DNA of 64,000 bases from Nocardioides panaciterrulae (GTDB taxonomy: Bacteria > Actinomycetota > Actinomycetes > Propionibacteriales > Nocardioidaceae): assembly GCF_013409645.1 (NCBI RefSeq), contig NZ_JACCBG010000001.1:1302001-1366000 (forward strand). The letters run 5' to 3'. The notes under the pieces were generated by a model that saw only the letters and a list, made by a program, of their open reading frames with translations, had not been told where the DNA came from and ran no database searches. Each line of letters opens with the position of its first letter. Within the stretch, counting starts at the first letter, position 1. Below are positions 26,736 through 44,806 of the stretch, one piece after another. The position numbers and the translations under genes are program-made.

Positions 26736-26780
26736 CCGGGTACGGACCCACTCCACCGTTCCCGGCACCGAGGAGTGAGC

Positions 26781-27962
26781 ATGAAGGCGGTCACCTGGCA
26801 CGGCCGACGCGACGTCCGCGTCGAAGAGGTCCCCGACCCGGTCCTGAAGGAGTCGAACGACGCGATCGTCCGGATCACCTCCAGCGGACTGTGCGGCTCG
26901 GACCTGCACCTCTACGAGACGCTGGGCCCCTTCATGGGGGAGGGCGACGTGCTGGGCCACGAGCCCATGGGCATCGTCGAGGAGGTCGGCTCCGAGGTCG
27001 GCGACCTGAAGATCGGCGACCGGGTGGTGGTGCCCTTCCAGATCTGCTGCGGGCACTGCTGGATGTGCGCCCAGGGCCTGCACACCCAGTGCGAGACGAC
27101 CCAGGTGCGCGACCAGGGCATGGGCGCCGCGCTCTTCGGCTTCAGCAAGCTCTACGGCGAGGTGCCCGGCGCGCAGGCGGAGTACCTGCGGGTCCCGCAG
27201 GCGCAGTTCATGCCGATCAAGGTGCCCGAGGGGCCGCCGGACGATCGGTTCCTGTTCCTCTCCGACGTGCTGCCGACCGCGTGGCAGTCCTTCGTCTACG
27301 CCGACGTCCCCAAGGACGGCACGCTGCTGGTCCTCGGGCTCGGACCCATCGGGGAGATGGCCTGCCGGATCGCGCGGCACCAGGGCTACCGGGTGCTCGC
27401 GGTCGACCGGGTCCCCGAGCGGCTGGCCCGGGCGGCGGGCCGCGGGGTCGAGGTGCTCGACATGCGTGAGGTCGACGACGTCGGCGAGGAGGTGCGCTCG
27501 CGCACCCAGGGCCGAGGCGCCGACGCGGTCATCGACGCGGTCGGCATGGAGGCGCACGGCTCGCCGGTCGCCGAGCTCGGCCAGCGGATCTTCAACGCGC
27601 TGCCCAAGCGGCTCACCGCCCCGATCATGAACAAGGCCGGCCTGGACCGGATGGCCGCGATCTACACCGCCATCGACGCGGTCCGGCGCGGCGGCACCGT
27701 CTCCCTGATCGGGGTCTACGGCGGCCAGTCCGACCCGCTGCCGATGCTCACGATGTTCGACAAGCAGCTCCAGCTGCGGATGGGCCAGGCCAACGTCAAG
27801 CGGTGGGTGGACGACATCATGCCGTTGCTGACCGACGACGCCGATCCGCTGGGCACCGAGGACTTCGCCACCCACCGGGTGCCGCTGGCCGAGGCACCCA
27901 CGGCGTACGACAACTTCCAGAAGAAGCAGGACGGCACGATCAAGGTCGTCTTCCAGCCGTAG
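26781..27962 (+). CDS. Zinc-dependent alcohol dehydrogenase, formaldehyde-dehydrogenase-like subgroup
   Basis: 393 residues from ATG 26781, five bases after AGGAG; an in-frame GTG two codons earlier overlaps that site. Catalytic Zn ligands sit in SSGLCGSDLHLY and GHEPMGIVEEVG. The structural Zn cysteines are in CCGHCWMCAQGLHTQC. The Rossmann motif is GLGPIGEMA, and AVDRVPERL follows it with the acidic NAD-binding residue. An insert near 270-300 and the length match the group of glutathione-independent formaldehyde dehydrogenase-like enzymes. The physiological substrate cannot be told from sequence. It follows the PAP2 gene by 45 bases on the same strand. Confidence 0.92.
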   Translation: MKAVTWHGRRDVRVEEVPDPVLKESNDAIVRITSSGLCGSDLHLYETLGPFMGEGDVLGHEPMGIVEEVGSEVGDLKIGDRVVVPFQICCGHCWMCAQGLHTQCETTQVRDQGMGAALFGFSKLYGEVPGAQAEYLRVPQAQFMPIKVPEGPPDDRFLFLSDVLPTAWQSFVYADVPKDGTLLVLGLGPIGEMACRIARHQGYRVLAVDRVPERLARAAGRGVEVLDMREVDDVGEEVRSRTQGRGADAVIDAVGMEAHGSPVAELGQRIFNALPKRLTAPIMNKAGLDRMAAIYTAIDAVRRGGTVSLIGVYGGQSDPLPMLTMFDKQLQLRMGQANVKRWVDDIMPLLTDDADPLGTEDFATHRVPLAEAPTAYDNFQKKQDGTIKVVFQP

Positions 27963-28030
27963 CAGCGGCCGCACCGACCAGCGGCCGGCCGGTGGTTCGA
28001 CCGGTGGTTGACCGGCGGTTGGACGGCCGC

Positions 28031-28044
28031 GGGCCCAAGGTCCC
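28031..28044. promoter_or_regulatory. Candidate DosR/DevR-like box
   Basis: GGGCCCAAGGTCCC agrees with the mycobacterial dormancy-box core GGGACTWWAGTCCC at 11 of 14 positions. It lies 56 bases upstream of the site-2 protease gene, whose relative Rip3 (Rv2625c) is a DosR-regulon member in M. tuberculosis. The match is suggestive only, because GC-rich palindromes occur by chance here. Confidence 0.3.
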
Positions 28045-28069
28045 CGCGGTGGTGTCGGTGGACCCGTGT

Positions 28070-28104
28070 CCACGCCCCCACGCGTTCCTAGCGTGGGGGC
28101 GTGG
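28070..28104. promoter_or_regulatory. Hairpin covering the start codon of the site-2 protease gene
   Basis: 14-base arms (28070-28083 and 28091-28104) are perfect complements with a 7-base loop, and the right arm includes the GTG start at 28101. A TAGCGT -10-like hexamer (28089-28094) overlaps the stem. In DNA it could be an operator. If transcription starts upstream of the left arm, it would mask the start codon in the mRNA. Confidence 0.5.
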
Positions 28105-29282
28105 TCGTCTTCCGGGTCCGTGGTGTCCCGATCAGGATCGGCTGGAGCTGGCTCGCGATCGTCGCCCTGGTCTTCTGGTCGTTGGCGGCCGTGCTCTTCC
28201 CGAACGCCTACCCGGGCCGCCCGGCCGGGGAGTACGTCGCGATGGCGGCCGTCGGCACCCTGCTGCTGTTCGCCTCGCTGCTGGTCCACGAGCTGTGCCA
28301 CACGCTGCAGTCGATGCGTGAGGGCGTGCACGTCAAGGACATCACGCTGTTCCTCTTCGGGGGCGTGTCCCAGGCCGACGAGCCGGTGCCCAGCTTCGGC
28401 GCGGAGTTCCGGATCGTCGCGGCGGGACCGCTGGCCTCGTTCGTGCTGATGCTGTTCTTCGGGCTGCTCGCCCTCGTCGGCGACGTGGCCGGGCTGGCCG
28501 ACCCGTGGGTGGGGGTGCTGGGCTACCTGGCCCGGATCAACGGGCTGCTCCTGGTCTTCAACCTGGTGCCCGCGCTGCCCCTGGACGGTGGCCGGCTGCT
28601 GCACTCGTGGCTGTGGCGGCGGTCCGGGGACCGGGAGCGGGCCACGATCCGGGCGGCCGGCGCCGGCCGGGTCTTCGCGATCATGCTGATCTCGCTGGGG
28701 GTGGCGGTGGCCCTGGTCGGCGACACCGTGGGCGGGGTGTGGTTCGTCGCGATCGGCTGGTTCCTGCTGCAGGCGGTCCGGGCGGAGGTGATGTCCGCGC
28801 GGGCGACCCAGGCGTTCACGGGCCTGCGGGTGCGGGACCTGATGACCGCGCCGCCGGTGTGCCTGCGCCCCGACAGGACGGTCGCCGACCTCGCGGCCCA
28901 CCTCGACGAGCTGGGCCACCACCCGGCCTACCCCGTGGTCGCCGACGGCCGCTACCTCGGCACGCTGGTGCTGGCCCGGGCCGGCGCGGTCCCCGAGCAC
29001 CGCCGGGGCGACGTGCGGGTCGGCGAGCTGATGGTGCCGGCCGATGCGCTGCCGGTGCTGCACCCCGAGGACGAGGTCGTCGAGGCCGCACAGCGGGTGA
29101 GCGCCGCCCTCGGCGCCCCGGGCGTGGCGCACCGCGGCGAGGCGCCCACCTCCTGGGTGGTCCTGGGCGGCCCGTCGGGCGACGAACCGGTGGCCGTGCT
29201 CTCGACCACCGACCTCGAGCGGGTGATCGCCACCGCCGACCTGCGTGGCGAGGCCGGCGCCCGCGACCGCGCGGAGCGGTGA
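28101..29282 (+). CDS. Site-2 protease (M50, Rip3-like) with tandem CBS domains
   Basis: 393 residues from GTG 28101, six bases downstream of TAGCGT (leaderless arrangement). The intramembrane zinc site is HELCH (His63, Glu64, His67) in helix 2, and the third ligand is in PALPLDGGRLLHS (Asp162). Six hydrophobic segments cover residues 10-230. Residues 245-380 form two CBS motifs (VRDLMTAPPVCLRPDRTVADLA; VGELMVPADALPVLHPEDEVVEAAQRV), which usually bind adenylates. This order matches mycobacterial Rip3/Rv2625c. It would cleave membrane-bound substrates such as anti-sigma factors; none is assigned. Confidence 0.93.
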   Translation: MVVFRVRGVPIRIGWSWLAIVALVFWSLAAVLFPNAYPGRPAGEYVAMAAVGTLLLFASLLVHELCHTLQSMREGVHVKDITLFLFGGVSQADEPVPSFGAEFRIVAAGPLASFVLMLFFGLLALVGDVAGLADPWVGVLGYLARINGLLLVFNLVPALPLDGGRLLHSWLWRRSGDRERATIRAAGAGRVFAIMLISLGVAVALVGDTVGGVWFVAIGWFLLQAVRAEVMSARATQAFTGLRVRDLMTAPPVCLRPDRTVADLAAHLDELGHHPAYPVVADGRYLGTLVLARAGAVPEHRRGDVRVGELMVPADALPVLHPEDEVVEAAQRVSAALGAPGVAHRGEAPTSWVVLGGPSGDEPVAVLSTTDLERVIATADLRGEAGARDRAER

Positions 29283-30220: not shown

Positions 30221-31981
30221 TCAGCCGCGGACCTGCCGCCGGTCGTCGGGCAGCCGCAGCGTGCGACCGGTCCGGTCGAGGTGGGCGAGCAGCGGCAGCG
30301 CCACCCGGCGGCTGGTGCCGAGCGCCTGACGGGCCTGGCTGGTCGTGAACGGCTGCGGCAGCCCGCGGAGCACGTCCCGTGCCTCCTCGTCGGCGCCGGG
30401 CAGCAGCACCACACCCTCCGCCACCCGCAGCACGTGGCCGGTGCGGTGCAGCGCGGCCACCGTCTTCGGGTCCAGGCCGAGCTGCGCCAACCGGCCGGCG
30501 TCCGGGGCGGCGAACGGAGCGTCACGCAGGTCGGCGGCCAGGCCCTCGACCGCACGGGCCAGCGCCGGGGGCAGGCCGGGTGCGCGGTCCCGTCGGACCC
30601 GGGCCTCCTCGATCCGCAGCGGCGGTGCGACCAACGGCGGCACCAGGGCGGCGTCGGGCAGGTCGAGCTCGTGGGCCAGCGCGGCCGGGGTCACGCCCGG
30701 CTGCAGCGGCGTGGCGAGTCGGTCGACCGCCGCGACCAGGTCCGCCCGCAGCCGGGCCGCGCGCTCGGGGGAGAGCAGCCAGTCGCCCGCGCGCACCGAT
30801 CCCGCGGGGAGCGGCTCGGTCGGCACGCCGATGCGGCGCAGCAGGTCGGCGCGCACCAGTCCGCGCGCGGCCAGCTGCCCGGCCAGGGCGCCGTCGTACG
30901 ACGCGAGGGCGGCGGCGCGGGTGCGGGCCGAGCCCCGGCGGCCGAGGGGCGGGGGCGCCGGGTCGAGCACCCGGACCCCCCACACGGTCCGGCTGCCGGG
31001 GTCGCGCAGCAGCGCCCGGTCGCCCAGCCGGAGCGGGAGCGGGTGCTCCAGCGCCAGCCGCGCGTGCCGGTCGCCGAGCGGCCGCGCGCGCACCGTGGTC
31101 ATCGCCGCGCCGACGTGCAGCACCGGCCGTTCGGGCAGGCGCTGGGTGAGGTCCCCGGTCAGCCGGACGTCGAGCGTGGTCACGGCCTCGAACGCGTCGG
31201 GGCTGACCAGTACGGTGCCGCGGCTGATCGCCTCGGGCGCCCGGCCGCCGAGGTCGACGGCGACCCTGGCCACCCCCCGGACGGACTCGACGGGGCGGCC
31301 CAGCGACTCCAGGCCGCGGACCCGCACCGGCTCGTCGCCCACGCACAGCGTGTCGCCGACCCGGATGGTGCCGGCCGGGAGGGTGCCGGTCACCACGGTG
31401 CCGGTGCCGTGCACGGTGAACCGCCGGTCGATCCAGAGTCGTACGGCGGCCTCCGGGTCGGGCTGGGGGACCGACTCGAGCACGCCGGCGAGCGCGGCCC
31501 GGAGATCGTCCAGCCCGGCACCGGTGCGGCCGCTGACGGTGACCGCCGGGGCGTCGCGCAGCCCGGTGTGGGCCAGCTCCTCGCGGGCGCGCGCCACGGC
31601 AGGTGCCGGGTCGGCGAGGTCGGACCTGGTGACCACCAGCACGCCGTGCCGCACGCCGAGCGCGTCGAGCGCGGCGAGGTGCTCGGCGGCCTGCGGCATC
31701 CACGGGTCGTCGGCGGCGACCACGAGCATCGCGACGGGCACCGGGCCCACGCCGGCCAGCGCGGTGGAGACGAAGCGGGAGTGCCCCGGCACGTCGACGA
31801 AGGCGACGTCGCCCAGGCTCCGGCCGTCGGGCGCCACCAGCTCGGTCCAGCAGTAGCCGAGCTCGATCGACAGCCCGCGGCGCCGCTCCTCCTCGAGCCG
31901 GTCCGGGTCGCTGCCCGTGAGCGCCCTGACAAGCGTGGACTTGCCGTGGTCCACGTGGCCGGCGGTGGCGACGACGTGCAC
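30221..31981 (-). CDS. selB: Selenocysteine-specific elongation factor SelB
   Basis: 586 residues from GTG 31981, one base after the selA stop. The N-terminal GTPase has G1 GHVDHGKST, G3 VDVPGHSRF and G4 VTRSDL. Two beta-barrel domains follow (FTVHGTGTVVTGTLPAGTIRVGDTL). The C-terminal third holds the winged-helix repeats (ALAHELDLPDAAL; FTTSQARQALGTSRRVALPLLAHLDRTG) that bind the SECIS hairpin of the mRNA. It delivers Sec-tRNA to the ribosome at recoded UGA. The target in this window is fdhA, 3.7 kb away. Confidence 0.96.
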   Translation of the reverse strand: MHVVATAGHVDHGKSTLVRALTGSDPDRLEEERRRGLSIELGYCWTELVAPDGRSLGDVAFVDVPGHSRFVSTALAGVGPVPVAMLVVAADDPWMPQAAEHLAALDALGVRHGVLVVTRSDLADPAPAVARAREELAHTGLRDAPAVTVSGRTGAGLDDLRAALAGVLESVPQPDPEAAVRLWIDRRFTVHGTGTVVTGTLPAGTIRVGDTLCVGDEPVRVRGLESLGRPVESVRGVARVAVDLGGRAPEAISRGTVLVSPDAFEAVTTLDVRLTGDLTQRLPERPVLHVGAAMTTVRARPLGDRHARLALEHPLPLRLGDRALLRDPGSRTVWGVRVLDPAPPPLGRRGSARTRAAALASYDGALAGQLAARGLVRADLLRRIGVPTEPLPAGSVRAGDWLLSPERAARLRADLVAAVDRLATPLQPGVTPAALAHELDLPDAALVPPLVAPPLRIEEARVRRDRAPGLPPALARAVEGLAADLRDAPFAAPDAGRLAQLGLDPKTVAALHRTGHVLRVAEGVVLLPGADEEARDVLRGLPQPFTTSQARQALGTSRRVALPLLAHLDRTGRTLRLPDDRRQVRG

Positions 31982-31982
31982 C

Positions 31983-33458
31983 TCAGCGGGTCCCGTCCGT
32001 GGGCCGCCCCGCGCCGGGCACCGCGCCGGGCAGGTCGGGACCGGCCGCGCCCAGGGCGGCGAGAACGGCGGCGAGCAGGGCGTCGTCCTGCTCGGCCGGC
32101 ACGGCCACCAGGTCCAGCAGCAGGCGCCCCTCGTGGACCCGCCCGAGCACCGGGACCCGTCCGGCGCGCAGCGGCCCGGCCAGGCGGGCGTCGAGGGCGA
32201 CGGCGGCGCTGGGCAGCACCACCCCCGGCGCGCCCCCGCCTCCGACCGCCGCCTGGGACCGCACGGCCTCGGCGCTCCGCCTGCGGGGTGCGCCGGAGGC
32301 CGGCTCCTGGGCCGGCTCCGGAGCCGCGGCCACGGCAGGGTTGACGGCGGAGTCGATGGCGGCGTTGATCGCGGCGGCCAACCGTTCCGCCCGGGCGAGG
32401 AGCTCGCCCGGCTCGGCGTCGAGTGCGGTCGCCACCGGGGTGGCCGGGCCGCTGAGCGTCGCCTCCAGCGCCGCCAGCGTCAGCTTGTCGACCCGCAGGG
32501 CCCGCGCCAGCGGGTGGCGCCGCAGCCGGTGCACGAGCTCGGCGCGGCCGAGCAGCAGGCCGGCCTGGGGGCCGCCGAGCAGCTTGTCGCCCGAGGCGGT
32601 CACCAGGTCGGCCCCGGCGCGCAGCACGGTCGCCGCGTCCGGCTCCTCGGGCAGCCGGGGATGCGGCGCGAGCAGCCCCGAGCCGATGTCGACGACCAGC
32701 GGCACGCCGCGCGCGGCGGCGAGGGTGGCCAGCTCGTCGACGGCGACGCTGGAGGTGAACCCCTCGACCCGGAAGTTCGACGGGTGCACCTTGAGCACGA
32801 ACGCGGTCCGCTCGCCGAGCGCGTCGGCGTAGTCCCGCGCGTGCACCCGGTTGGTGGTGCCGACCTCGCGCAGCCGTGCGCCCGCGGACTCGACCAGGTC
32901 GGGGACCCGGAACCCGTCGCCGATCTCGACCATCTCGCCCCGGGCCACCACGACCTCCCGGCCCGGACCGTCGGCGACGTGGGCCAGGGCGCTGGTGGCC
33001 AGCGCCAGCGCGGCGGCCCCGTTGTTCACGACGTGCACGTCGCCGGCGTCGGGGACGGCCGCGGCCAGCGCGGCCAGCGCGCCCGCGCCCCGGCGCCCGC
33101 GGCTCCCGGTCGCCAGGTCGAGCTCGACGTCGGTGGTCCCGGCGGCCGCCGCCAGCGCCTCGACGGCGGCGGCGGACAGCGGCGCCCGACCCAGATTGGT
33201 GTGCACCACCACGCCGGTCGCGTTGATCACCGGGCGCAGCGAGGACGCACCGGCCGGGAGCGCGTCACGGACGGCGCCGACGACGTCCTCGGGCGCGACC
33301 TCACCCCGCCGGCAGGCGTCCAGCACCGCGGTCACGACCGCCTTGGTGCGGGCGCGCCCCAGCCGCTCGGCGGCCGCGGCCACCGCCGGGTCGGCGAGCA
33401 CGGCGTCGGTGCGCGGCGTCCGACGTCGCGGATCCTCTGCCGCCCCAGCTCCCGTCAC
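31983..33458 (-). CDS. selA: L-seryl-tRNA(Sec) selenium transferase
   Basis: 491 residues from GTG 33458. A TAGAGT hexamer lies eight bases upstream, overlapping the stop of the preceding esterase gene, so selA may have its own leaderless promoter. The PLP-lysine motif is SGDKLLGGPQAG (Lys292). VINATGVVVHTNLGRAPLS, ATGSRGRRG and VVDIGSGLL are other SelA hallmarks. A Pro/Ala-rich insert of about 50 residues before the last domain (AVAAAPEPAQEPASGAP) is unusual. The enzyme turns Ser-tRNA(Sec) into Sec-tRNA(Sec) using selenophosphate from SelD. It is followed directly by selB. Confidence 0.96.
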   Translation of the reverse strand: MTGAGAAEDPRRRTPRTDAVLADPAVAAAAERLGRARTKAVVTAVLDACRRGEVAPEDVVGAVRDALPAGASSLRPVINATGVVVHTNLGRAPLSAAAVEALAAAAGTTDVELDLATGSRGRRGAGALAALAAAVPDAGDVHVVNNGAAALALATSALAHVADGPGREVVVARGEMVEIGDGFRVPDLVESAGARLREVGTTNRVHARDYADALGERTAFVLKVHPSNFRVEGFTSSVAVDELATLAAARGVPLVVDIGSGLLAPHPRLPEEPDAATVLRAGADLVTASGDKLLGGPQAGLLLGRAELVHRLRRHPLARALRVDKLTLAALEATLSGPATPVATALDAEPGELLARAERLAAAINAAIDSAVNPAVAAAPEPAQEPASGAPRRRSAEAVRSQAAVGGGGAPGVVLPSAAVALDARLAGPLRAGRVPVLGRVHEGRLLLDLVAVPAEQDDALLAAVLAALGAAGPDLPGAVPGAGRPTDGTR

Positions 33459-33469
33459 GTTCCGGGACT

Positions 33470-34396
33470 CTAGCCGGAGGCGCCGAGCGCCGGTGCCGCC
33501 CCGTCGCCGGTGCCGATCAGCCCCTGCAGCAACCGGGCCTCGGCCTCCATGCCGGAGCGCAGCGGATGGTACGCCGCGGCCCGGCGCAGGCTCTCGACCG
33601 AGCCGTTGATCCACGCGTCCGGCCCCGCGCAGGCGTCGTGCCCGGTCGAGGCGGCGTAGGTGTCGGCGAAGTGGGCGCCGTCGAGCGCCGCCGTCGACTG
33701 CAGGGCGGTGTTGAGGGTGCGCTCGATCCGGTCCGCCCACCGGTAGTCCCCGGCGGCGAGCGGGATCGCCCGGCAGGTGCCGTCGGCCGGCAGCACCCGC
33801 GGGTAGCCGACGACCCACACCTCGGCCTTCGGCGCCCGGGCGCGGATCCGGCGCAGCAGCGTCCGCAGGTGCGCCCGCACGTGGTCCACCTTCGCGGCGA
33901 GCTCGTCGGTGCCGTCGTCGTCGGTGTAGGCGTCGCGGCAGGGGGCCCCGTCGGGGTCGCGGCGGGCCAGGCGGGGGCAGGTGCGGAACAGCGCGGAGAA
34001 CAACCCGTCGTCGTTGCCGCCGATGCCCAGCGTCACCAGGTCGGTGCCGCGGTCCAGCGCGGCGAGCTGCGGCGGGGACGGCGGCCCGGGAAGACCGGTG
34101 TGCACCGGCCGGGACAGGTCCTTGCTCTCGGCACCGGTGCAGGTCACGTCCCGGAACGACGTCACGTGCAGCCGCCGGGCCAGCAGGGAGGGGTAGTTGT
34201 GGTCCGAGCGCAGGCACAGGCCCGCCTCCAGGCGCTGCCGCGGGATGAGCGGGCCGGCACTGTAGGAGTCGCCCAGCGCAACGTAGTCCAGGCCGGGGGA
34301 GGGGGCTTCCGCGGGCGTGGTCGCCACGGCCGCGGCACCGGCGACCGCGAGGGCCAGGGCGGCCAGGAGACGGGTCCTTCGGTACGTCCGCCTCAC
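33470..34396 (-). CDS. Secreted SGNH-hydrolase family esterase/lipase
   Basis: 308 residues from GTG 34396, close behind a GAGAGGGG stretch. The start VRRTYRRTRLLAALALAVAGAAAVATTPAEA is a signal peptide, so the enzyme is exported. Block I is YVALGDSYSAG with the nucleophilic Ser, block III LGIGGND, and block V AAAYHPLRSGM with the catalytic His. Paired cysteines (for example in LCLRSDHNY, VTCTGAES and RTCPRL) suggest disulfides, as in the Streptomyces scabies esterase group. The stop is 12 bases from the selA start, but a functional link to selenium metabolism is not evident. Confidence 0.92.
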   Translation of the reverse strand: MRRTYRRTRLLAALALAVAGAAAVATTPAEAPSPGLDYVALGDSYSAGPLIPRQRLEAGLCLRSDHNYPSLLARRLHVTSFRDVTCTGAESKDLSRPVHTGLPGPPSPPQLAALDRGTDLVTLGIGGNDDGLFSALFRTCPRLARRDPDGAPCRDAYTDDDGTDELAAKVDHVRAHLRTLLRRIRARAPKAEVWVVGYPRVLPADGTCRAIPLAAGDYRWADRIERTLNTALQSTAALDGAHFADTYAASTGHDACAGPDAWINGSVESLRRAAAYHPLRSGMEAEARLLQGLIGTGDGAAPALGASG

Positions 34397-34400
34397 CCCC

Positions 34401-34460
34401 CTCTCAGACGTGGGCCTCTCGGGCGTGGACTTCTCGGGCGTGGACTGCTCAGGCGTGGGT
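34401..34460. repeat. Four degenerate 15-base tandem repeats
   Basis: CTCTCAGACGTGGGC, CTCTCGGGCGTGGAC, TTCTCGGGCGTGGAC and TGCTCAGGCGTGGGT follow one another from 34401 to 34460. They span the gap between the cation efflux stop (34449) and the esterase start (34396) on the minus strand. The period of five codons means that upstream translation of the esterase frame would read STPE-like pentapeptides, but the signal peptide argues that translation starts after the array. Confidence 0.65.
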
Positions 34461-35363
34461 GGCGTGCTCGTGGTCGGCGTGCGAGGCGGGCTCGAACTGG
34501 ATCGTCGAGTGCTCGACGTCGAAGTCGGTGTCCAGGACGTGCTGCAGCTCGTCGAGCATCGGGCCGAGGTGGCCGTCGAGGAAGCAGGAGTCGTCGACGA
34601 CGACATGGGCGGTGAGCACCGGAAGCCCGGTCGCGACCTGGCTGGCGTGCAGGTCGTGCACGTCGTGGACGTGGGCCAGGGAGAGCATCCGCTGCCGCAC
34701 CTCGGTCAGCTCGAGTCCCTTGGGCGTCGACTCCAGCAGCACGTCCACACTGTCGCGCAGCAGCCGCACCGTCCGGGGGATGATCAGCACGCCGATCACC
34801 AACGAGGCGACCGCGTCGGCGCGCAGCCAGCCGGTGAGGGCGATGACGGCCGCGGCCAGCAGCACGGCGACCGAGCCGAGTGCGTCGTTGAGCACCTCGA
34901 GGAAGGCCGCGCGCATGTTCAGGTCGGCGCCGCGGCCTCCCAGCAGCACCACGAGGCTGATCAGGTTGCCGACCAGCCCGACGACGCCGAAGACGACCAT
35001 CGCCGTGGGCGCGACCTCGGGCGGGGCCAGGAGCCGCTTGACGCCCTCGACCAGCACGAACAGCCCGACGGTGAGGAGTACGGCGGCCTGCGCGGCGGCG
35101 GCCAGCACCTCGGCCCGCCGGTAGCCCCAGGTCCGCTCGTCGGTGGCGGGCCGGCGGGCGAGCGCGGCCGCGAGCACCGCCATCGTCAGGCCGGCGACGT
35201 CGGTGAGCATGTGCCCGGCATCCGCGAGCAGCGCGAGGCTCCCGGAGACGACCGCCCCGACGACCTCGACCACCAGCACGGTGATCGTGATGGCGAGGAC
35301 GGTGACCAGGCGGCCCCGGTGATCGGCGAGGCCGACGCTCCCGTGGTCGTGGCCGGCGCCCAT
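34449..35363 (-). CDS. Cation diffusion facilitator (Zn/Co/Cd efflux, CzcD/ZitB type)
   Basis: 304 residues from ATG 35363, six bases after AAGGAG; a GTG six codons earlier overlaps that site. Six membrane helices are visible. LLADAGHMLTDV in helix 2 and FLEVLNDALGSV in helix 5 give the transport-site Asp/His/Asp residues. His clusters at both ends (GHDHGS; SHADHEHATHA) fit metal handling. The C-terminal cytoplasmic domain has VHDVHDLHASQVATGLPVLTAHVVV. It exchanges divalent metal for protons. The tRNA-Sec gene lies 29 bases upstream on the same strand and may be cotranscribed with it. Confidence 0.94.
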   Translation of the reverse strand: MGAGHDHGSVGLADHRGRLVTVLAITITVLVVEVVGAVVSGSLALLADAGHMLTDVAGLTMAVLAAALARRPATDERTWGYRRAEVLAAAAQAAVLLTVGLFVLVEGVKRLLAPPEVAPTAMVVFGVVGLVGNLISLVVLLGGRGADLNMRAAFLEVLNDALGSVAVLLAAAVIALTGWLRADAVASLVIGVLIIPRTVRLLRDSVDVLLESTPKGLELTEVRQRMLSLAHVHDVHDLHASQVATGLPVLTAHVVVDDSCFLDGHLGPMLDELQHVLDTDFDVEHSTIQFEPASHADHEHATHA

Positions 35364-35392
35364 GGGCGACTCCTTCGGCACTCAGGATCCGT

Positions 35393-35487
35393 TGGCGGAG
35401 GCGGACGGGAATCGAACCCGCCGGACCCGGATACCGGGCCCCTACGGTTTTGAGGACCGCGCCCGTCACCAGACGAGAAACGCCTCC
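35393..35487 (-). tRNA. selC: tRNA-Sec (anticodon UCA), with encoded CCA
   Basis: The minus strand reads GGAGGCGT at the 5' end and CCGCCTCC then G-CCA at the 3' end, giving at least seven acceptor pairs. A six-pair D stem (CTCGTC / GACGGG) with a TGGT loop, typical of tRNA-Sec, is followed by an anticodon stem GCGGT/ACCGT around CCTCAAA, so the anticodon is TCA. A long variable arm (GGCCCGG / CCGGGTCC) and a T arm with GGGTTCGATTCCC complete it. Total length 95 with CCA. In this alignment base 33 is C, where almost all tRNAs have U. It lies between the fdh and selAB blocks. Confidence 0.95.
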
Positions 35488-35708
35488 GCGGAGAAACCTA
35501 GCGGGTGCGGGGGAGCGCCGTAGGGTCGCCCGTCCCGACGGCGCGCCGACATAGTTCTGCCCGGGCTCTGCGTGGGTCTCTGCGCGGGGTTTCTGCGCGG
35601 GCGCAGACAAATCTCGACCCGGTCGGGTTTGGATCGCCGTGGTGTGGTTACGGTGAGAACCAGCAGCCCGGACATCGGCCCGGCTGGATCGGACGGAGGA
35701 CTGACCAG

Positions 35709-38700
35709 GTGGGTGTCAAGACGTTCATCGGTTCCTGGCCGTTGGTTCGCCAGGCCACCGGCGAGGACCGGTTGGGCCGCGGCAGCGCGGCGATGTCCCC
35801 CCGCAGCGAGCACCTCTCGCCCCGGACGGTCGAGGCCGACAAGGTCGTGGACTCCGTCTGCCCGTTCTGCGCCGTGGGCTGCGCGCAGAAGGTCTACGTC
35901 AAGGACGGCCAGGTCACCCAGATCGAGGGCAACCCGGCCAGCCCGATCTCGCGCGGCCGGCTGTGCCCCAAGGGCAGCGCCAGCAAGCAGCTGGTCACCT
36001 CGCCGACCCGCGTCACCAAGGTCCGCTACCGGCGCCCGCACGGCACCGAGTGGGAGGACCTCGAGCTCGACACCGCGATGGACATGATCGCGGACCGCGT
36101 CATCGAGACCCGCAAGCAGTTCTGGGAGTGGGAGGACGACCAAGGCCGTCGTACCCGCCGGACCACTGGCATCGCCAGCCTCGGAGGAGCGACCCTCGAC
36201 AACGAGGAGAACTACCTCATGAAGAAGCTCTACACGGCGATGGGTGCGATCCAGATCGAGAACCAGGCCCGTATTTGACACTCCTCCACGGTTCCCGGTC
36301 TGGGAACCTCGTTCGGCCGTGGTGGTGCCACCAGCTTCCTCCAGGACCTGCAGAACGCTGACTGCATCCTGATCGAGGGCTCCAACATGGCGGAGGCCCA
36401 CCCCGTGGGCTTCCAGTGGGTGATGGAGGCCAAGCGCCGCGGCGCCACGATCATCCACGTCGACCCGCGGTTCACCCGGACCTCGGCGGTGGCGGACCTG
36501 CACGTCCCGATCCGGGCCGGGTCCGACATCGCGTTCCTGGGTGCCCTGATCAACCACGTGCTCAGCAACGACCTCGACTTCCGTGAGTACGTCGTGGCGT
36601 ACACCAACGCGGCCTCGATCGTCGATGAGGACTTCCAGGACACCGAGGAGCTCGACGGGCTGTTCTCCGGGTTCGACTCCGAGCGCAACCACTACGACCC
36701 GAAGACCTGGCAGTACGAAGGGGCCAAGGCCGCGCCGTCGGCCGGCCAGCGAGACCCCGCCCAGGACGCCGGCCCGGACGAGGAGCCGGACCCGGGGGCC
36801 GAACAGGACAACCACAAGTCGGCGCACGAGGCGGCGAAGTCGGAGTCGCACGGCTCCGGCGGCCCCGCCCTGGCCAACAAGCCGATCCGCGACGAGACCC
36901 TGCAGCACCCGCGGTGCGTCTTCCAGATCCTCAAGCGCCACTTCGCCCGCTACACCCCCGAGATGGTGCAGGAGGTGTGCGGCATCAGCCCCGAGCAGTT
37001 CCGGGCGGTCGCCGACGCGCTGACCTCCAACAGCGGCCGGGAGCGCACCGGTGCGTTCTGCTACGCCGTGGGCTGGACCCACCACACCGTCGGCGCGCAG
37101 ATGATCCGCTCCGCCGCGATCCTGCAGACGCTGCTGGGCAACATCGGCCGGCCGGGCGGCGGCATCATGGCGCTGCGCGGGCACGCCAGCATCCAGGGCT
37201 CGACCGACATCCCGACGCTGTTCAACATCCTGCCGGGCTACCTGCCGATGCCCCATGCGGGAATGCACCACGACCTCGAGGAGTACGTCGCCTCCGACGC
37301 CGGCGCGACCGGCTTCTGGGGGAACATGAAGTCGTACATGGTCAGCCTGCTGAAGTCCTACTGGGGCGACGCGGCCACGCCGGAGAACGAGTTCTGCTTC
37401 GACTACCTGCCGCGGCTGACCGGCGACGCGTCGACGTACACCACGGTGAAGTCGATGATCGACGGCGGCTGCAAGGGCTACTTCGTGGTCGGGGAGAACC
37501 CGGCGGTGGGCTCGGCCAACGGCAAGATGCAGCGGCTCGGCATGGCCAACCTCGACTGGCTGGTGGTCCGGGATCTGCAGATGATCGAGTCGGCGACGTT
37601 CTGGAAGGACGGCCCCGAGATCGAGACCGGGGAACTGGTCACCGAGGAGATCGGCACCGAGATCTTCTTCCTCCCCGCGGCCTCGCACGTGGAGAAGGCG
37701 GGCTCGTTCACCCAGACCCAGCGGATGCTCCAGTGGCGCGACAAGGCCGTCGAGCCGCCGGGGGACTGCCGCAGCGAGCTGGACTTCTACCACGAGCTGG
37801 GCAAGCGGATCCGGGCGAAGCTGGCGGGCTCCACCGACGAGATGGACCGGCCGCTGCTCGACCTGGTCTGGGACTACCCGATGACCGAGGACGGGGAGAC
37901 CGACGGCCACGCGGTGCTGCGCGAGATCAACGGCACCGGGCCGGACGGCAGCGCGCTGTCGGCGTACACCGAGCTCAAGGACGACGGGTCCACGGCCTGC
38001 GGCTGCTGGATCTACTGCGGGGTCTACGCCGACGAGGTCAACCAGGCCCGGCGCCGCAAGCCGCACTGGGAGCAGGACTACGTGGCCTCCGAGTGGGGGT
38101 GGGTGTGGCCGGCGAACCGCCGGATCATCTACAACCGCGCCTCGGCGGCCCCGGACGGCACCCCGTGGAGCGAGCGGAAGAAGTACGTCTGGTGGGACGC
38201 GGAGGCCGGCAAGTGGACCGGTTCCGACGTGCCCGACTTCATCGTGGACCGTCCTCCGGACTACGTGCCGCCGGACGACGCCCGGGGCCCCGACGCGATC
38301 GGCGGCAAGGACCCGTTCGTCATGCAGACCGACGGCAAGGCGTGGCTCTACGCGCCGCTGGGGGTGGCCGACGGCCCGCTGCCCACGCACTACGAGCCGC
38401 CGGAGTCGCCGGTGCGCAACCCGCTCTACGGGCAGCAGAACAACCCCTCGCGGCGCAAGCTGTCCGATGCGTCGAACCCGATCAACCCCAGCTTCAGCGA
38501 GGTGTTCCCGTACGTGTTCACCAGCTACCGGCTGACCGAGCACCACACCGCGGGCGGCATGAGCCGGACCCTGCCGTACCTCACCGAGCTGCAGCCCGAG
38601 CCGTTCTGCGAGGTCTCGCCGCGGCTGGCGGCCGAGCGCGGGCTCGAGCACGGCGGCTGGGCGACGATCGTGACCGGTCGCACGGCGATCGAGGCGCGGG

Positions 38701-38990
38701 TGCTGGTGACCGAGCGGCTGCGCTCGCTGCGGCTGGGCGACCAGTGGGTCGAGCAGGTCGGCCTGCCGTACCACTGGGGGCGCAACGGCATCACGCAGGG
38801 CGACTCGCCCAACGACCTGGTCAACGTGACGATGGACCCCAACGTCTACATCCAGGACAAGGTGGGCACCTGTGACATCCGGCCGGGCCGGCGTCCGCGC
38901 GGGCCGGCGCTCACGACGTACGTCGAGGACTACCGGCGGCGTGCAGGCATCGACATGACCGATCCGACCGACGGAGGGACCGACCGGTGA
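35709..38990 (+). CDS. fdhA: Formate dehydrogenase alpha subunit, selenocysteine-containing
   Basis: 1,093 residues if the TGA at 36276-36278 is read as Sec190. The GTG start has GGAGGA eight bases upstream. A [4Fe-4S] site (Cys51, Cys54, Cys58, Cys86) opens the molybdopterin domain. The active site reads NQARI-Sec-HSSTVPGLGTSFGRGG, equal in form to E. coli FdnG/FdoG. The frame continues unbroken after the TGA (AEAHPVGFQWVMEAKRRGA) to the C-terminal cofactor domain. An acidic low-complexity insert of about 60 residues lies near 336-398. It oxidises formate to CO2 with a Mo/W-bis-MGD cofactor. No twin-Arg signal is obvious, so its side of the membrane is uncertain. The stop overlaps fdhB. Confidence 0.95.
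36276..36318 (+). promoter_or_regulatory. Bacterial SECIS element in fdhA (UGA plus hairpin)
   Basis: The recoded UGA is at 36276-36278. Eleven bases later a seven-pair stem GGTTCCC/GGGAACC (36290-36296, 36302-36308) closes the pentaloop GGTCT. The 11-base distance and the GGUCU loop are the same as in the E. coli fdhF SECIS that SelB recognises. The coding sequence runs through the hairpin. Confidence 0.92.
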
Positions 38991-39916
38991 CCAGCTCCCT
39001 CGACCGCTCGTTGTGGGGTCCGCTGGACGACGTCCAGCGCGACGCCGGCTACGACGCGCACCCGCCCCGGATGGGGTTCTTCACCGACACCTCGGTCTGC
39101 ATCGGCTGCAAGGCCTGCGAGGTGGCGTGCAAGGAGTGGAACGACGTCCCCGAGGACGGCTACCTGCTCACCGGCATGTCCTACGACAACACCGAGGCGC
39201 TCGGCGCGAGCACCTGGCGGCACGTGGCGTTCGTCGAGCAGCCTGTCACCGCACCGGCCGGCGGCGGCGCGGCCACCGAGCTGGGCATGCCCGGCATGGG
39301 CCCGCCGGCCCCGGCCGGCGACGACCAGGCGACCGCGTCGGGTGCGGACGGCGTGCGCTGGCTGATGTCCTCGGACGTGTGCAAGCACTGCACCCACGCC
39401 GCCTGCCTCGACGTGTGTCCCACCGGTGCGCTGTTCCGGACCGAGTTCGGCACCGTGGTCGTGCAGCCCGACGTCTGCAACGGGTGCGGCTACTGCGTCT
39501 CGGCGTGCCCCTACGGCGTGATCGACCTGCGCAAGGAGGACGGTCGGGCGTTCAAGTGCACGCTGTGCTACGACCGGCTCAAGGTGGGGGAGTCCCCGGC
39601 CTGTGCGAAGGCGTGCCCCACGGAGTCGATCCAGTTCGGCGAGCTGAGCGAGCTGCGCGAGCGTGCCGACCAGCGGGTCGCGGAGCTGCACGCCAAGGGC
39701 GTCGACGTGGCCCGCCTCTACGGCGCGGACCCGAACGACGGCGTCGGCGGCGACGGGGCGTTCTTCCTGCTGCTCGACGAGCCGGAGGTCTACGGCCTGC
39801 CGCCCGACCCCGTGGTCACCACCCGGGACCTCGGGTCGATCTGGAAGCACGTCGGAGCGGCGGCGGCCACCCTCGTCGGGGTCGGGGTCGCGTCGTTCCT
39901 CGGGAGGAAGAAGTGA
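38987..39916 (+). CDS. fdhB: Formate dehydrogenase beta subunit, four-cluster Fe-S protein
   Basis: 309 residues; GTG overlaps the fdhA stop (GTGA). Four ferredoxin-type Cys groups are present: CIGCKACEVACKEW, CKHCTHAACLDVCPTG, CNGCGYCVSACPYG and CTLCYDRLKVGESPACAKACP, matching FdnH/FdoH. A C-terminal hydrophobic segment (HVGAAAATLVGVGVASFLGRKK) should anchor it in the membrane. An insert rich in Ala/Gly/Pro (near 90-115) separates clusters 1 and 2. It carries electrons from FdhA to the membrane subunit encoded next. Confidence 0.95.
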   Translation: MTSSLDRSLWGPLDDVQRDAGYDAHPPRMGFFTDTSVCIGCKACEVACKEWNDVPEDGYLLTGMSYDNTEALGASTWRHVAFVEQPVTAPAGGGAATELGMPGMGPPAPAGDDQATASGADGVRWLMSSDVCKHCTHAACLDVCPTGALFRTEFGTVVVQPDVCNGCGYCVSACPYGVIDLRKEDGRAFKCTLCYDRLKVGESPACAKACPTESIQFGELSELRERADQRVAELHAKGVDVARLYGADPNDGVGGDGAFFLLLDEPEVYGLPPDPVVTTRDLGSIWKHVGAAAATLVGVGVASFLGRKK

Positions 39917-39923
39917 GGCGCCG

Positions 39924-40916
39924 ATGAGCCCGCGCGGTGGAGGCGGCGGTGGCCGCGGCGAGACGCCGATGGTGCCGGAGGCGGAGTTCGAGTCCTACTA
40001 CGGGCGCCAGATCCTCAAGACGCCGACGTGGAAGACGCCCGACGTGCCGCTCTACCTCTTCCTCGGAGGGCTGGCCGGCGGCTCGTCGCTGCTCGCGGAG
40101 GGGGCCGCGCTGCAGGACCTGCCTGCCCTGGAGCGGGTCGCCCGCGGTGCGGCCGCGGCCGGTGCCGGGATCGGCACGGTCTTCCTGGTCCACGACCTCG
40201 GGCGTCCCGAGCGGTTCCTCAACATGTTGCGGGTCTTCAAGATCACCTCACCGCTCTCGGTCGGGTCGTTCATCCTCGCGCCGTTCTCGGCCCTGTCGAC
40301 CGCTGCCCTCGGCTCGCACCTGACCGGCCGGCTCCCGCGGCTCGGCCGGCTCTCCGGCGTCGGCGCCGCTGCGTTCGGGCCGCCGCTGGCGACCTACACC
40401 GCGGCGTTGATCACGAACACCGCCGTCCCGGCCTGGCACGAGGGGCACCGGGAGATGCCGTTCATCTTCGGCGGCTCCGGGGCCGCCGCGGCCGGCGGGC
40501 TGGCGATGGCGCTCGCGCCGGTCTCGCAGAGCGGGCCGGCGAAGCGGATGGCGCTGGCCGGAGCCGCGATCGACCTCGCCGGGGTGGAGCTGATGAACCG
40601 CCGCCTCGGGATGCTGGCCGAGCCCTACGAGCAGGGGAAGTCCGGCCGGCTGATGAAGACGGCCCGCGCGCTCACCGTCACCGGGGTCGGGCTCTCGCTG
40701 CTGGGACGCCGGTCCCGGTTCGCGCGCGCCGTCGCCGGTGCGGCCTACGTCGCGGGCTCGGTGACGCTCCGCTTCGGGATCTTCGAGGCCGGCCTGGCCT
40801 CGGCCCGCGACCCGAAGTACGTCGTGGTGCCGCAGCGCGAGCGGCTGGAGAAGCGCGCGGCCGAGCAGCGCAAGGTCACGGGCGGGGTCACGGGGTCGAG
40901 CAGCCCCACTGCCTGA
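39924..40916 (+). CDS. nrfD: NrfD/PsrC-type membrane subunit of formate dehydrogenase
   Basis: 330 residues from ATG 39924, seven bases after the fdhB stop. A cytoplasmic lead (ESYYGRQILKTPTWKTPDVPLYLFLGG) precedes about eight helices. LAGGSSLLAEG, HDLGRPERFLNMLRVFKITSPLSVGSFIL and TYTAALITNTAVPAWHEGHREMPFIFGGSG are NrfD/PsrC hallmarks, including the quinone-site region. NrfD proteins have no heme, so this complex would reduce quinone directly, without the diheme cytochrome b (FdnI) of E. coli. The C-terminal tail is basic and polar. Confidence 0.92.
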   Translation: MSPRGGGGGGRGETPMVPEAEFESYYGRQILKTPTWKTPDVPLYLFLGGLAGGSSLLAEGAALQDLPALERVARGAAAAGAGIGTVFLVHDLGRPERFLNMLRVFKITSPLSVGSFILAPFSALSTAALGSHLTGRLPRLGRLSGVGAAAFGPPLATYTAALITNTAVPAWHEGHREMPFIFGGSGAAAAGGLAMALAPVSQSGPAKRMALAGAAIDLAGVELMNRRLGMLAEPYEQGKSGRLMKTARALTVTGVGLSLLGRRSRFARAVAGAAYVAGSVTLRFGIFEAGLASARDPKYVVVPQRERLEKRAAEQRKVTGGVTGSSSPTA

Positions 40917-41078
40917 GCCGCCGGGCGGTGGGCGGCGCGGGTCGCCACCGTTCGGTGGAGGGGCCGCCCTCAGCAGGTCCTGGGCGGTCCGGCGGCCGAG
41001 CGCCGGACCTCACCCCCGCGTCGATACCCTCACCGGCCGGCGGGCATGCTGGAGCGGGTCGAGCGAGGGGAGCAGCAC

Positions 41079-42092
41079 GTGACGAGTGACCAGATGAGGG
41101 CCCTGGCCGGGACGGTCCGCCTGACGCAGTACGCCTCGGGCGGGGGATGCGCCTGCAAGGTCCCGCCGGGCGAGCTCGAGCGGGTGCTGGCCGGGCTCGG
41201 CGGCGCCTCCGGCGACGACCTCCTGGTGGGGCTCGAGAACGGCGACGACGGTGCCGTCGTACGCATCCAGGAGGACCGGGCGGTGGTGGCGACCGCGGAC
41301 TTCTTCACCCCGGTCGTCGACGACGCCTACGACTGGGGGCGCATCGCCGCGGCGAACGCGCTCTCCGACGTCTACGCGATGGGCGGCGACCCCGTGGTCG
41401 CGGTGAACCTGCTGGCCTGGCCGCGCGACCGGATCCCGTTCGAGCTGGCCGCGGAGGTGCTGCGCGGGGGAGCGGCGGTGTGCGCCGAGGCCGGCTGCCA
41501 CCTGGCCGGCGGGCACAGCATCGACGACCCGGAGCCGAAGTACGGGCTCGCGGTCACCGGGATCGCCGATCCCGCCCGGCTGCTGCGCAACGACGCGGGC
41601 GTCGCGGGGGTGCCGCTGACGCTGACCAAGCCGCTCGGCCTCGGCATCCTCAACAACCGGCACAAGGCGACCGGCGAGGTGTTCGCGGACGCCGTCGCCA
41701 CGATGACCGCCCTGAACCGGGACGCCTCGCTCGCCGCCCGCCGCGCCGGCCACACCTGCGCCACCGACGTGACCGGCTTCGGCCTGCTCGGGCACCTGTA
41801 CAAGCTCTGCCGGGCCAGCGGCGTCTCCGCCGTCCTCGACGCGGCCGCGGTGCCCTACCTCGAAGCCGCGCGCCCCTCGCTGGCCGAGGGCTTCGTGCCC
41901 GGCGGGAGCCGGCGCAACCTGGACTGGGTCCGCCCGCACGTCGCCACCTCCGGCTCGGTCACGGAGGAGGAGCTGCTGCTCCTCGCCGACGCCCAGACCT
42001 CCGGTGGCCTCCTGGTCGCCGGCGAGCTGCCCGGCCACCCCGTGATCGGGGAGCTGGTGCCGGCCGGCGAGCACGCCGTCGTCGTGCGGTGA
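41079..42092 (+). CDS. selD: Selenide, water dikinase (selenophosphate synthetase)
   Basis: 337 residues from GTG 41079, six bases after AGGGGAG; an in-frame ATG at 41046 lacks a ribosome-binding site. The catalytic loop GGGCACK (Cys24, Cys26, Lys27) has Cys at the position that is Sec in some SelD proteins. ADFFTPVVDDAYDWGRIAAANALSDVYAMGG is the ATP and Mg site of the PurM-like fold. LAGGHSIDDPEPKYGLAVTG and ATDVTGFGLLGHL are further SelD motifs. It makes selenophosphate for SelA. It lies 162 bases downstream of the fdh operon on the same strand. Confidence 0.96.
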   Translation: MTSDQMRALAGTVRLTQYASGGGCACKVPPGELERVLAGLGGASGDDLLVGLENGDDGAVVRIQEDRAVVATADFFTPVVDDAYDWGRIAAANALSDVYAMGGDPVVAVNLLAWPRDRIPFELAAEVLRGGAAVCAEAGCHLAGGHSIDDPEPKYGLAVTGIADPARLLRNDAGVAGVPLTLTKPLGLGILNNRHKATGEVFADAVATMTALNRDASLAARRAGHTCATDVTGFGLLGHLYKLCRASGVSAVLDAAAVPYLEAARPSLAEGFVPGGSRRNLDWVRPHVATSGSVTEEELLLLADAQTSGGLLVAGELPGHPVIGELVPAGEHAVVVR

Positions 42093-42130
42093 CCTGAGGC
42101 TGGCAGGGGGCTGTGGCCGGCCGGGGGCCG

Positions 42131-42500
42131 GTCGGGGTGGTGAATGGTGGGAGGCTGCAGGGCGGCGGGCCGGATTTCTGCGGTTGGTCGCCATTCCGCA
42201 TCGACCCGGGGACGAGGTGGTCCCACCCCCCCCCGGGGTCGCGCGGTCGGGCTCAGCCCCGGTGGGCGGGTCGGGGTGGTGAATGGTGGGAGGCTGCAGG
42301 GCGGCGGGCCGGATTTCTGCGGTTGGTCGCCATTCCGCATCGACCCGGGACGAGGTGATCCCACCCCCCCCGGGGTCGCGCGGTCGGGCTCAGCCCCGGT
42401 GGGCGGGTCGGGGTGGTGAATGGTGGGAGGCTGCAGGACGGCGGGCCGGATTTCTGCGGTTGGTCGCCATTCCGCATCGACCCCGGACAACGTGACCCCA
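42131..42500. repeat. Three-copy tandem repeat of about 137 bases
   Basis: Near-identical copies start at 42131, 42270 and 42407 (spacing 139 and 137). The third is cut after about 95 bases. The shared core runs GTCGGGGTGGTGAATGGTGG to the sequence CCATTCCGCATCGACCC. Copies differ by a few bases, chiefly in a run of 9 versus 8 C. The array fills most of the 450-base gap between selD and the DUF5709 gene (42093-42542). Short reading frames cross it on both strands, but none has a ribosome-binding site or family resemblance, so it is treated as non-coding. Confidence 0.9.
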
Positions 42501-42542
42501 CCCACGGGTTTGAACGGCCCACCCGGCGGCAACCGGAGAGAC

Positions 42543-43581: not shown

Positions 43582-44646
43582 TCACGGGCGGTAGCTGTCG
43601 TGCGGCACCACCACGGCCCGGCCGCGCACGGTGCCGTGCCGCAGGTCGAGGTAGGCCTGGGCGGCGTCCTCCAGCGTGTAGAGCTCGGACTCGGCGTGCA
43701 GCAGTCCGCGGGCGGCCAGGTCGAGCACCTCGGCCAGCTCGCGCCGGTTGCCCCAGTACGTCGTCTGCACGCTCGCCTCGTAGGGCAACGAGAAGAACGA
43801 GACCGGCAGCGTGCCGCCGGCGATGCCGACCAGGGTGAGGTCGCCGAGCTGACGGACGCAGTGCGCGGCCGCGGCGAGGGTGTCGTCGGAGCCGACGAAG
43901 TCGAGGACGACGTCAGCGCCGACGCCGCCGGTGAACTCCCGGACCTGGTCGACGAGCTGCTCGCCGGGCGGGAGGGCCAGCTCGGCTCCCGAGGACAGCG
44001 CGAGGTCCCGGGCCGCCTCCCGGGCGTCCACGGCGACGATCCGCGCGGCGGTGGTGGCCCGCAGGATCTGCACCCCCAGGTGGCCGAGGCCGCCCACGCC
44101 GATGACCACCGCGGTCGCGCCCGGGACCAGCTTGGCGTTGGAGCGGCGGATGGCGTGGTACGGCGTGAGCCCGGCGTCGGTGAGCGGCGCGGCGGCCACC
44201 GGGTCCAGCCCGTCCGGCAGCGGGACCACGTGCCGCGCGGCCGGGACCAGCAGGAACTCGGCCATGCCGCCGTCCAGCCCGAGGCCACCGCCACCGCTGC
44301 GGACCGGGGCGAGGTCGGGGCGCTCGCAGTAGGTCTCGAGCCCGTCCCGGCACCGGGCACAGGTGCCGCACCCCCAGGCACCGACCACGGCCACGGGCTG
44401 GCCCGGCTCGAGGTCCCGGACGCCGGCGCCCACCGCGTGCACCCAGCCGGCGTTCTCGTGACCCAGCGTGAACGGCGGGTCCCAGGGCAGCTGGCCCGCC
44501 TCGAAGTCGTGCATCAGGTGCAGGTCGGAGTGGCAGGCGCCGGCGGCCCCGACCTGGACGCGGACCTCCCCGGGACCGGGGTCGGGGACCGGCAGGTCCT
44601 CGAGGACGGGCTCGCTCTTCCAGGACTTCAGGCGCAGCGCTCGCAT
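43582..44646 (-). CDS. NAD(P)-dependent zinc alcohol dehydrogenase
   Basis: 354 residues from ATG 44646, five bases after GGAGAGG. Catalytic Zn ligands are in GAAGACHSDLHLM (Cys) and TLGHENAGWVHAVG (His/Glu). Structural Zn cysteines lie in GCGTCARCRDGLETYC. The Rossmann motif is GVGGLGHLGVQ, and IVAVDAREAARDLA carries the Asp that favours NAD. Medium-chain length, close to the AdhP/AdhA group. It is divergent from the two-domain universal stress protein at 44807. A palindromic site with DosR-box character lies between them. Confidence 0.93.
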   Translation of the reverse strand: MRALRLKSWKSEPVLEDLPVPDPGPGEVRVQVGAAGACHSDLHLMHDFEAGQLPWDPPFTLGHENAGWVHAVGAGVRDLEPGQPVAVVGAWGCGTCARCRDGLETYCERPDLAPVRSGGGGLGLDGGMAEFLLVPAARHVVPLPDGLDPVAAAPLTDAGLTPYHAIRRSNAKLVPGATAVVIGVGGLGHLGVQILRATTAARIVAVDAREAARDLALSSGAELALPPGEQLVDQVREFTGGVGADVVLDFVGSDDTLAAAAHCVRQLGDLTLVGIAGGTLPVSFFSLPYEASVQTTYWGNRRELAEVLDLAARGLLHAESELYTLEDAAQAYLDLRHGTVRGRAVVVPHDSYRP

Positions 44647-44731
44647 CGCAGCCTCTCCGGTCGGGGACGTCGTCGCCCCCAGCCTCCCGGGTGCGCGGGG
44701 GTGCACGCAGGGGCCTCGGACCGCTCAGCGG

Positions 44732-44745
44732 CGGACGTTCGTCCC
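44732..44745. promoter_or_regulatory. Candidate DosR/DevR-like box between ADH and USP genes
   Basis: CGGACGTTCGTCCC agrees with the core GGGACTWWAGTCCC at 11 of 14 positions and contains the perfect palindrome GGACG-TT-CGTCC. It lies 86 bases upstream of the ADH start (minus strand) and 61 bases upstream of the USP start (plus strand). The link to a DosR-type regulator is inferred. Confidence 0.35.
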
Positions 44746-44806
44746 TTGGGCATCCGGGTGGCCGGGGTGAGGGTGGGGGCACTCTCACCCGTTCAGGAGG
44801 TCTGCC

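Follow-up and report, generated by a model that had tools for sequence, protein, structure and literature searches.

Can the ability to read UGA as a 21st amino acid pass from one genome to another as a single block of DNA, together with the enzyme that uses it? The question is raised by a locus in a 64,000-nt stretch (the window) of Nocardioides panaciterrulae (GCF_013409645.1, contig NZ_JACCBG010000001.1, positions 1,302,001 to 1,366,000; 74% G+C), whose genome is complete on one contig of 4.27 Mb. At positions 30221-42092 of the window, selB, selA, selC, the fdhA operon of a selenocysteine (Sec) formate dehydrogenase (FDH) and selD are grouped, the five key genes together spanning 11,866 nt. 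We consider it highly probable that this is a complete Sec cassette, predicted to serve one UGA-containing FDH and likely to pass between related actinobacteria as a unit.

An earlier note, made from the letters of this DNA, had placed the four sel genes and the Sec-fdh operon within 12 kb, and protein profiles, ARAGORN and the Rfam model RF01852 bear out both the genes and their coordinates. On the minus strand, selC is followed by genes for a CDF transporter and an SGNH hydrolase and then by selA and selB; the plus strand reads fdhA, fdhB, fdhC (NrfD-like) and selD. FdhA exceeds the cut-off of the actinobacterial FDH model NF041513 by about 550 bits, and selC, which has the anticodon UCA and an encoded CCA, is the sole tRNA-Sec copy over the RF01852 cut-off in the genome. 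On sequence criteria, the locus holds each component of the bacterial Sec-decoding trait (SelA, SelB, SelD, tRNA-Sec and a UGA with its hairpin), with SelB binding predicted.

The recoding of the fdhA UGA is supported by relatives. Across the examined loci, the active-site motif matched 125 times with a stop codon, never with Cys and once, by chance, with Ser. Downstream of the UGA lies a putative Sec insertion sequence (SECIS), in the stem of which the third bases of a Val and a Gly codon, both fourfold degenerate, pair in all 57 distinct sequences (window included) through five pair types (C-G, T-A, T-G, G-T and G-C), as counted with a pattern in which several letters of stem and loop were fixed, so that one divergent loop (L176) was not included. 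In 25 of these 57 sequences, the outermost pair is open. The loop base T is unchanged in 58 of 58 distinct FdhA sequences despite the G+C content of the window; this count comes from a freer listing, because the covariation pattern had the loop letters fixed. The evidence for the SECIS is the covariation, not the folding energy.

Is fdhA the only client? In the complete genome, no second selenoprotein was detected by an FdhA search, a SECIS model, a fixed-distance pattern or the SelD motif. The FdhA search found only FdhA itself. The SECIS model (R1, whose 24 training rows are FDH hairpins with a masked linker and include the window hairpin) scored fdhA at 38.7 bits (E=2.6e-6) and the runner-up at 18.7 bits (E=0.555), and none of four weaker matches had both a TGA and a stem. 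The TGA-RGTCT pattern at fixed distance occurs at 39 sites; among the 30 inspected, the only full stem besides fdhA (L284) turned out to follow the normal stop codon of a TetR gene and was rejected. SelD was dismissed as a second client, the window SelD being the Cys form (motif GGCACK). UGA-hairpin spacings other than the fixed distance are covered by the FDH-trained model alone, and stems unlike those of FDH are a further limit. Within these limits, fdhA is the only selenoprotein detected and its product the one enzyme that the locus is predicted to supply, which agrees with the earlier proposal that fdhA is the main or only selenoprotein; the many other selenoproteins that would have spoken against that proposal did not turn up in what was searched. 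The three Sec-FDH systems of Actinomycetospora chiangmaiensis (PMC7176365, in its available text), the 4 of 14 tested genomes with sel genes that gave no Sec-FDH of the window's family, the inspection of 30 of the 39 pattern sites and the single FDH-trained model behind the other spacings would leave room for sel genes that serve several selenoproteins, with the fdhA clustering as part of the picture; given the one FdhA homologue, the Cys-form SelD and no other convincing SECIS in the host genome, we regard this as improbable. Separately, the active site of SelD in a Pseudonocardiaceae metagenome-assembled genome (L161) seems to include a UGA codon (AG*ACK), versus 129 matches to GGCACK.

We next consider the relatives of the locus in the family. 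A selA over the cut-off is present in 81 of 294 Nocardioidaceae genomes, in one copy each. The loci of the 80 other genomes were read as regions of 4-20 kb in 79 cases and as a 2.9-kb locus in one (G025), and G293, with a split selA under the cut-off, was added to the family loci. All five key genes are held by 63 of 80 family loci (median span 9.3 kb), a slight undercount in which locus ends cut by contig edges are scored as misses and the selA of L116, found by profile, was missed by tblastn; selA, selB and selC are held by 74. With the full set of five shared by 63 of these 80 loci, the clustering is not due to chance, and a scattered sel gene order, which would have made it look incidental, did not appear in the relatives examined. 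The order of the window (type A, selB-selA-selC / fdhA..selD) recurs in 18 family loci, type B (selB-selA-selC / selD-fdhA) in 38 and type C (fdhA inverted) in five. A set of named loci, nearly all from actinomycetes, comprises the best 80 of at least 292 relatives retrieved through six exact peptides of the window SelA and is biased to close relatives; 52 of these 80 hold all five genes and 35, many of them from Streptomyces, have the order fdhA-selD-selC-selB-selA. A sel/FDH block whose SelA and FdhA are 64-66% like those of the window sits on a contig assigned to a Spirochaetaceae metagenome-assembled genome (L127); the assignment of this contig is possibly a binning error. Of 14 tested genomes whose fdhA was absent, distant or truncated, nine have a TGA-bearing Sec-FDH elsewhere, and the FDH match of one (G116) does not cover the Sec site. 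In G050 and G101, selC and fdhA both lie about 16-23 kb from selA.

Such clustering could also be maintained for co-regulation and not because the block passes between genomes. The operons are compact (selB begins 1 nt past the selA stop, and the fdhB start overlaps the fdhA end by 4 nt) and selC and fdhA are divergent, as co-regulation would have it. However, it fails to predict the conflict with the rpoBC tree described below, and gene order varies by type while the genes remain together; we give co-regulation as the sole cause a minor, though real, chance. Co-regulation and block transfer are compatible.

Block exchange predicts that the trees of the locus genes agree with one another and conflict with the core tree. 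On an rpoBC tree of 60 of the 294 genomes (36 with sel and 24 without, the latter hand-picked from the same genus, not random), Sec presence takes 13 changes, at least 11 of which are forced by starred branches. For the 32 genomes with all genes (rows of short proteins dropped, rpoBC as the only core tree), Spearman correlations of patristic distances are 0.65-0.81 among fdhA, selA, selB and selD and 0.23-0.29 between these genes and rpoBC, compared with 0.78 between rpoB and rpoC. The 13 type A genomes among the 32 form one branch in the FdhA (100) and SelAB (98.8) trees, and this clade is rejected on rpoBC (log-likelihood 564 lower, p-AU 6e-66). Conversely, G238 is sister to G150 and G219 on a starred branch of the rpoBC tree, and that clade is rejected for both locus data sets (p 2e-57 for FdhA, p 2e-47 for SelAB). 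Both conflicts match the prediction of block exchange. The locus trees agree and the core tree conflicts, as for a horizontally transferred sel and fdhA block, with some internal conflict.

Several results weigh against the main explanation. On the rpoBC tree, genomes with Sec group together more than they do under shuffled labels (13 changes versus a mean of 19.1), and the locus-rpoBC correlation, weak as it is, is equalled or exceeded in 4-17 of 999 permutations; hence, vertical descent also plays a part. An ancestral and mainly vertical locus, in which old sel/fdh variants coexisted and were lost differentially, would give patchiness and tree conflict without transfer, and it draws on these two observations and on the way SelAB broadly follows families. 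We nevertheless think it unlikely, as none of the 294 genomes has two selA over the cut-off, the four locus genes agree mutually far more than with rpoBC, and many parallel losses would presumably be required. Within the block, type A is not one clade on a 74-row SelAB tree (four changes, with G007 and G042 outside), and of 17 strong FdhA splits, selB contradicts three and selD four; this internal conflict means that the block is not indivisible and that its parts also reassort. On a 150-row SelAB tree, families are largely followed (15 label changes, the least possible being 12). No Sec-FDH of the window's FdhA family was obtained from G200, G003, G010 and G036, the four genomes counted above, and in G028, selC sits on another contig. 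In G236, a single contig, the sel genes at 3.34 Mb are about 1 Mb from the Sec-FDH at 2.31 Mb, meaning that the block has come apart or was built from two sources. In addition, the single-sequence fold of the SECIS is no stronger than that of shuffles (z 0.26), no integrase or transposase domain was found in the scanned locus proteins, the window has a single copy of the selC 3′ end, with no repeat, and a clean empty site was not found in the flanks of G254, where one side matched and the other did not.

Two of these genomes deserve a further word. The Sec-FDH of G236 (L041) is 83% like the window FdhA. G200 (L095) has a divergent selB-selA-selC-selD and, by eye, a transposase-like open reading frame (ORF) at the edge. 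On the 150-row tree, type C and G003 are Nocardioidaceae outside the main clade. Exchange of the block looks clear inside Nocardioidaceae and rare between families in our sample. The earlier idea that the locus could move as one unit is supported within the family, where the locus trees agree and differ from rpoBC, but not as common traffic between families, and in some relatives the parts are split or reshuffled. For Nocardioidaceae, we put forward, as a proposal with about even chances, that the Sec code is an accessory trait, in which genomes acquire, lose and exchange UGA recoding along with its one client, in the form of interchangeable variants A, B or C, at least 11 times in 60 sampled genomes, never two per sampled genome and without mobility machinery of their own.

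How the block would move is a separate matter. Neither an integrase or transposase nor a duplicated selC end, the marks of an integrative element or genomic island, was found. Integration at the tRNA end was rejected as a candidate, there being no second selC 3′ end in the window and no integrase visible by eye in seven inserts described below. Because no mobility gene was seen, homologous recombination between the flanking DNA of relatives would be the simplest guess. The nearest sel-less genome on the rpoBC tree, G254 (94% rpoBC identity), keeps the right-flank alcohol dehydrogenase (ADH) with genes like that of the universal stress protein (USP); the left flank is unmatched, and about 20 kb either side of the ADH gave no match to the window's locus genes. 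The flanks in the window (26775-29282 and 43582-45808) encode zinc ADHs, an M50-CBS membrane protease and a USP, a gene set that we take to resemble hypoxia or dormancy neighbourhoods. Directly after selD (42121-42503) lie three tandem copies of a palindromic intergenic unit with a 137-nt period. It has 19 matches in the genome, including further clusters near 0.962 and 1.513 Mb; none of 326 other loci contains an exact 27-mer taken from it, and it looks like a dispersed palindromic repeat family; as a structured RNA, it was rejected (fold z -0.27).

The CDF and SGNH genes fill the selC-selA gap of the window (about 1.9 kb). In relatives, selC adjoins selA (-100 to 250 nt) in 61 of 74 measurable family loci, and the remainder comprise one gap of 354 nt, 11 of more than 700 nt and one locus with selC on the other side. 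Seven of the 11 wide gaps were read; these hold unrelated genes, and no integrase was seen in them by eye. Because selC adjoins selA in most loci and the wide gaps read hold unrelated genes, we read the CDF and SGNH genes as inserted at the selC 3′ end in a lineage-specific event and not as part of the Sec system, in line with the earlier suspicion that they are passengers. They now sit in one compact minus-strand row with selC and selA, in the same orientation and within tens of nucleotides of both, as working members of the locus in, for example, metal or selenium handling would. The adjacency of selC and selA elsewhere and the unrelated genes in the wide gaps speak against such a role, as does the occurrence of CDF relatives in two and SGNH in five of 80 family loci, always past selB, on its far side, and we regard it as very unlikely. 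One named locus (among the best 80 of at least 292) has a CDF relative, outside the selC-selA gap. The idea of the CDF gene as a conserved partner, taken from the Actinomycetospora permease, gained no support from synteny. At the selC-selA junction (33458-35393 in the window), the two genes are more than 700 nt apart in the window and in 11 of the 74 loci, and 16-23 kb apart in G050 and G101; this end of a tRNA gene may be a favoured site of breakage.

From the families of its proteins, the locus would work as follows. SelD would make selenophosphate, the general seryl-tRNA synthetase would load tRNA-Sec with serine, SelA would turn the tRNA-bound serine into Sec, and SelB would bring Sec-tRNA to the ribosome on meeting the hairpin 11 nt past the fdhA UGA. 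FdhA would then oxidise formate and pass electrons to FdhB (4Fe-4S), FdhC (NrfD-like) and, presumably, the quinone pool; the CDF and SGNH genes would have been inserted at the selC 3′ end. FDH activity requires FdhD and the molybdopterin cofactor. No seryl-tRNA synthetase or molybdopterin gene was among the locus proteins scanned, and fdhD is some 0.8 Mb from the locus, at genome position 2,147,363 (PF02634, 177.6 bits versus a cut-off of 27.2; under the TIGR00129 and NF001943 cut-offs). The block holds what Sec use specifically needs, not everything that FDH activity needs, so the earlier view that one locus carries everything specific to Sec use is supported, and its description of the locus as self-contained does not extend to formate oxidation.

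The features are collected in Table 1. No twin-arginine signal was seen in the FdhA N-terminus as read. Between selC and fdhA, no 9-mer is common to more than 7 of 20 loci, giving no conserved regulatory element, and a scan for sigma-70 promoters and terminators found nothing above shuffles. By eye, a TAG, which reads CTA on the strand of selC, precedes selC by about 10 nt in 15 of 20 type-A-like loci (35488-35510 in the window); it may serve as a -10 promoter element, in which case the tRNA would be nearly leaderless. A COX1-type oxidase subunit at 3-2237 in the window fits an aerobic host.

Table 1. Features of the sel/fdh locus, in window coordinates.
Feature	Position	Strand	Evidence and remarks
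selB	30221-31981	-	TIGR00475, 251.7 bits (cut-off 242.25); 586 aa, C-terminal winged helix
selA, L-seryl-tRNA(Sec) selenium transferase	~31983-33458	-	TIGR00474, 412.3 bits (cut-off 267.9); PF03841; GTG start assigned by eye within ORF 31983-34217
SGNH/GDSL hydrolase	33470-34396	-	PF13472; no match to NCBIfam profiles; signal-like N-terminus; start assigned by eye
CDF cation efflux protein	34449-35363	-	TIGR01297, 260.8 bits; ATG with Shine-Dalgarno assigned by eye
selC, tRNA-Sec	35393-35487	-	ARAGORN; RF01852, 77 bits (gathering score 47)
fdhA, Sec-FDH alpha subunit	35709-38990	+	NF041513, 1954.3 bits (cut-off 1400); GTG start with GGAGG assigned by eye
In-frame TGA read as Sec	36276-36278	+	Context QARI-U-HSSTVPG; only in-frame TGA of fdhA; codon 190 counted from the start assigned by eye
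Putative SECIS hairpin GGUUCCC-GGUCU-GGGAACC	36290-36308	+	11 nt past UGA; synonymous covariation; model R1, 38.7 bits
fdhB, 4Fe-4S electron-transfer subunit	38987-39916	+	PF13247; TIGR01582, 188.8 bits, under cut-off 334.7
fdhC, NrfD-like membrane subunit	39924-40916	+	PF03916, 44.2 bits; start approximate
selD, selenide water dikinase	41046-42092	+	TIGR00476, 385.5 bits (cut-off 125)

The locus is a compact natural extension of the code with one client, and its close relatives both have and lack the block. The family therefore lets one ask what a 21st amino acid costs and gains, and whether a code extension travels as a dispensable block.

Comparable arrangements are known. The selABCD-fdnG-fdxH region of Corynebacterium aurimucosum ATCC 700975 (PMC2830990) likewise brings a UGA-containing FDH together with selC and the other sel genes in an actinobacterium, and the authors describe this order as highly conserved; it differs in its family and neighbours, and the available text of that paper holds no transfer analysis. 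In the FDH1 cluster of A. chiangmaiensis (PMC7176365; locus L143), for which selenite-dependent formate removal was measured, a Sec-FDH lies with selA and selB; unlike in the window, selD is outside the cluster, there are three Sec-FDH systems, and a permease lies between fdhC1 and selA, according to the accessible parts of the report. Streptomyces incarnatus (PMC4498112) also has selABCD with a Sec-FDH in an actinomycete, in a draft genome note whose accessible portion says nothing on transfer. Clusters of selABC and fdhA as the only selenoprotein, moved together by proposed horizontal transfer, were described by Zhang (2006, PMC1794560) and Peng (2016, PMC5029168), the latter listing actinobacterial cases; as far as their available text goes, these concern other lineages and come without quantification within a family. 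A family-level study of Sec-locus transfer in Nocardioides was not found in the literature searched. In summary, the clustering and transfer of sel genes with fdhA are already published in those two papers, as their available text has it, and the interpretation in the earlier note is largely right and not new in kind; what the present comparison adds is family-scale evidence that the sel and fdhA block acts as a single-client unit open to exchange.

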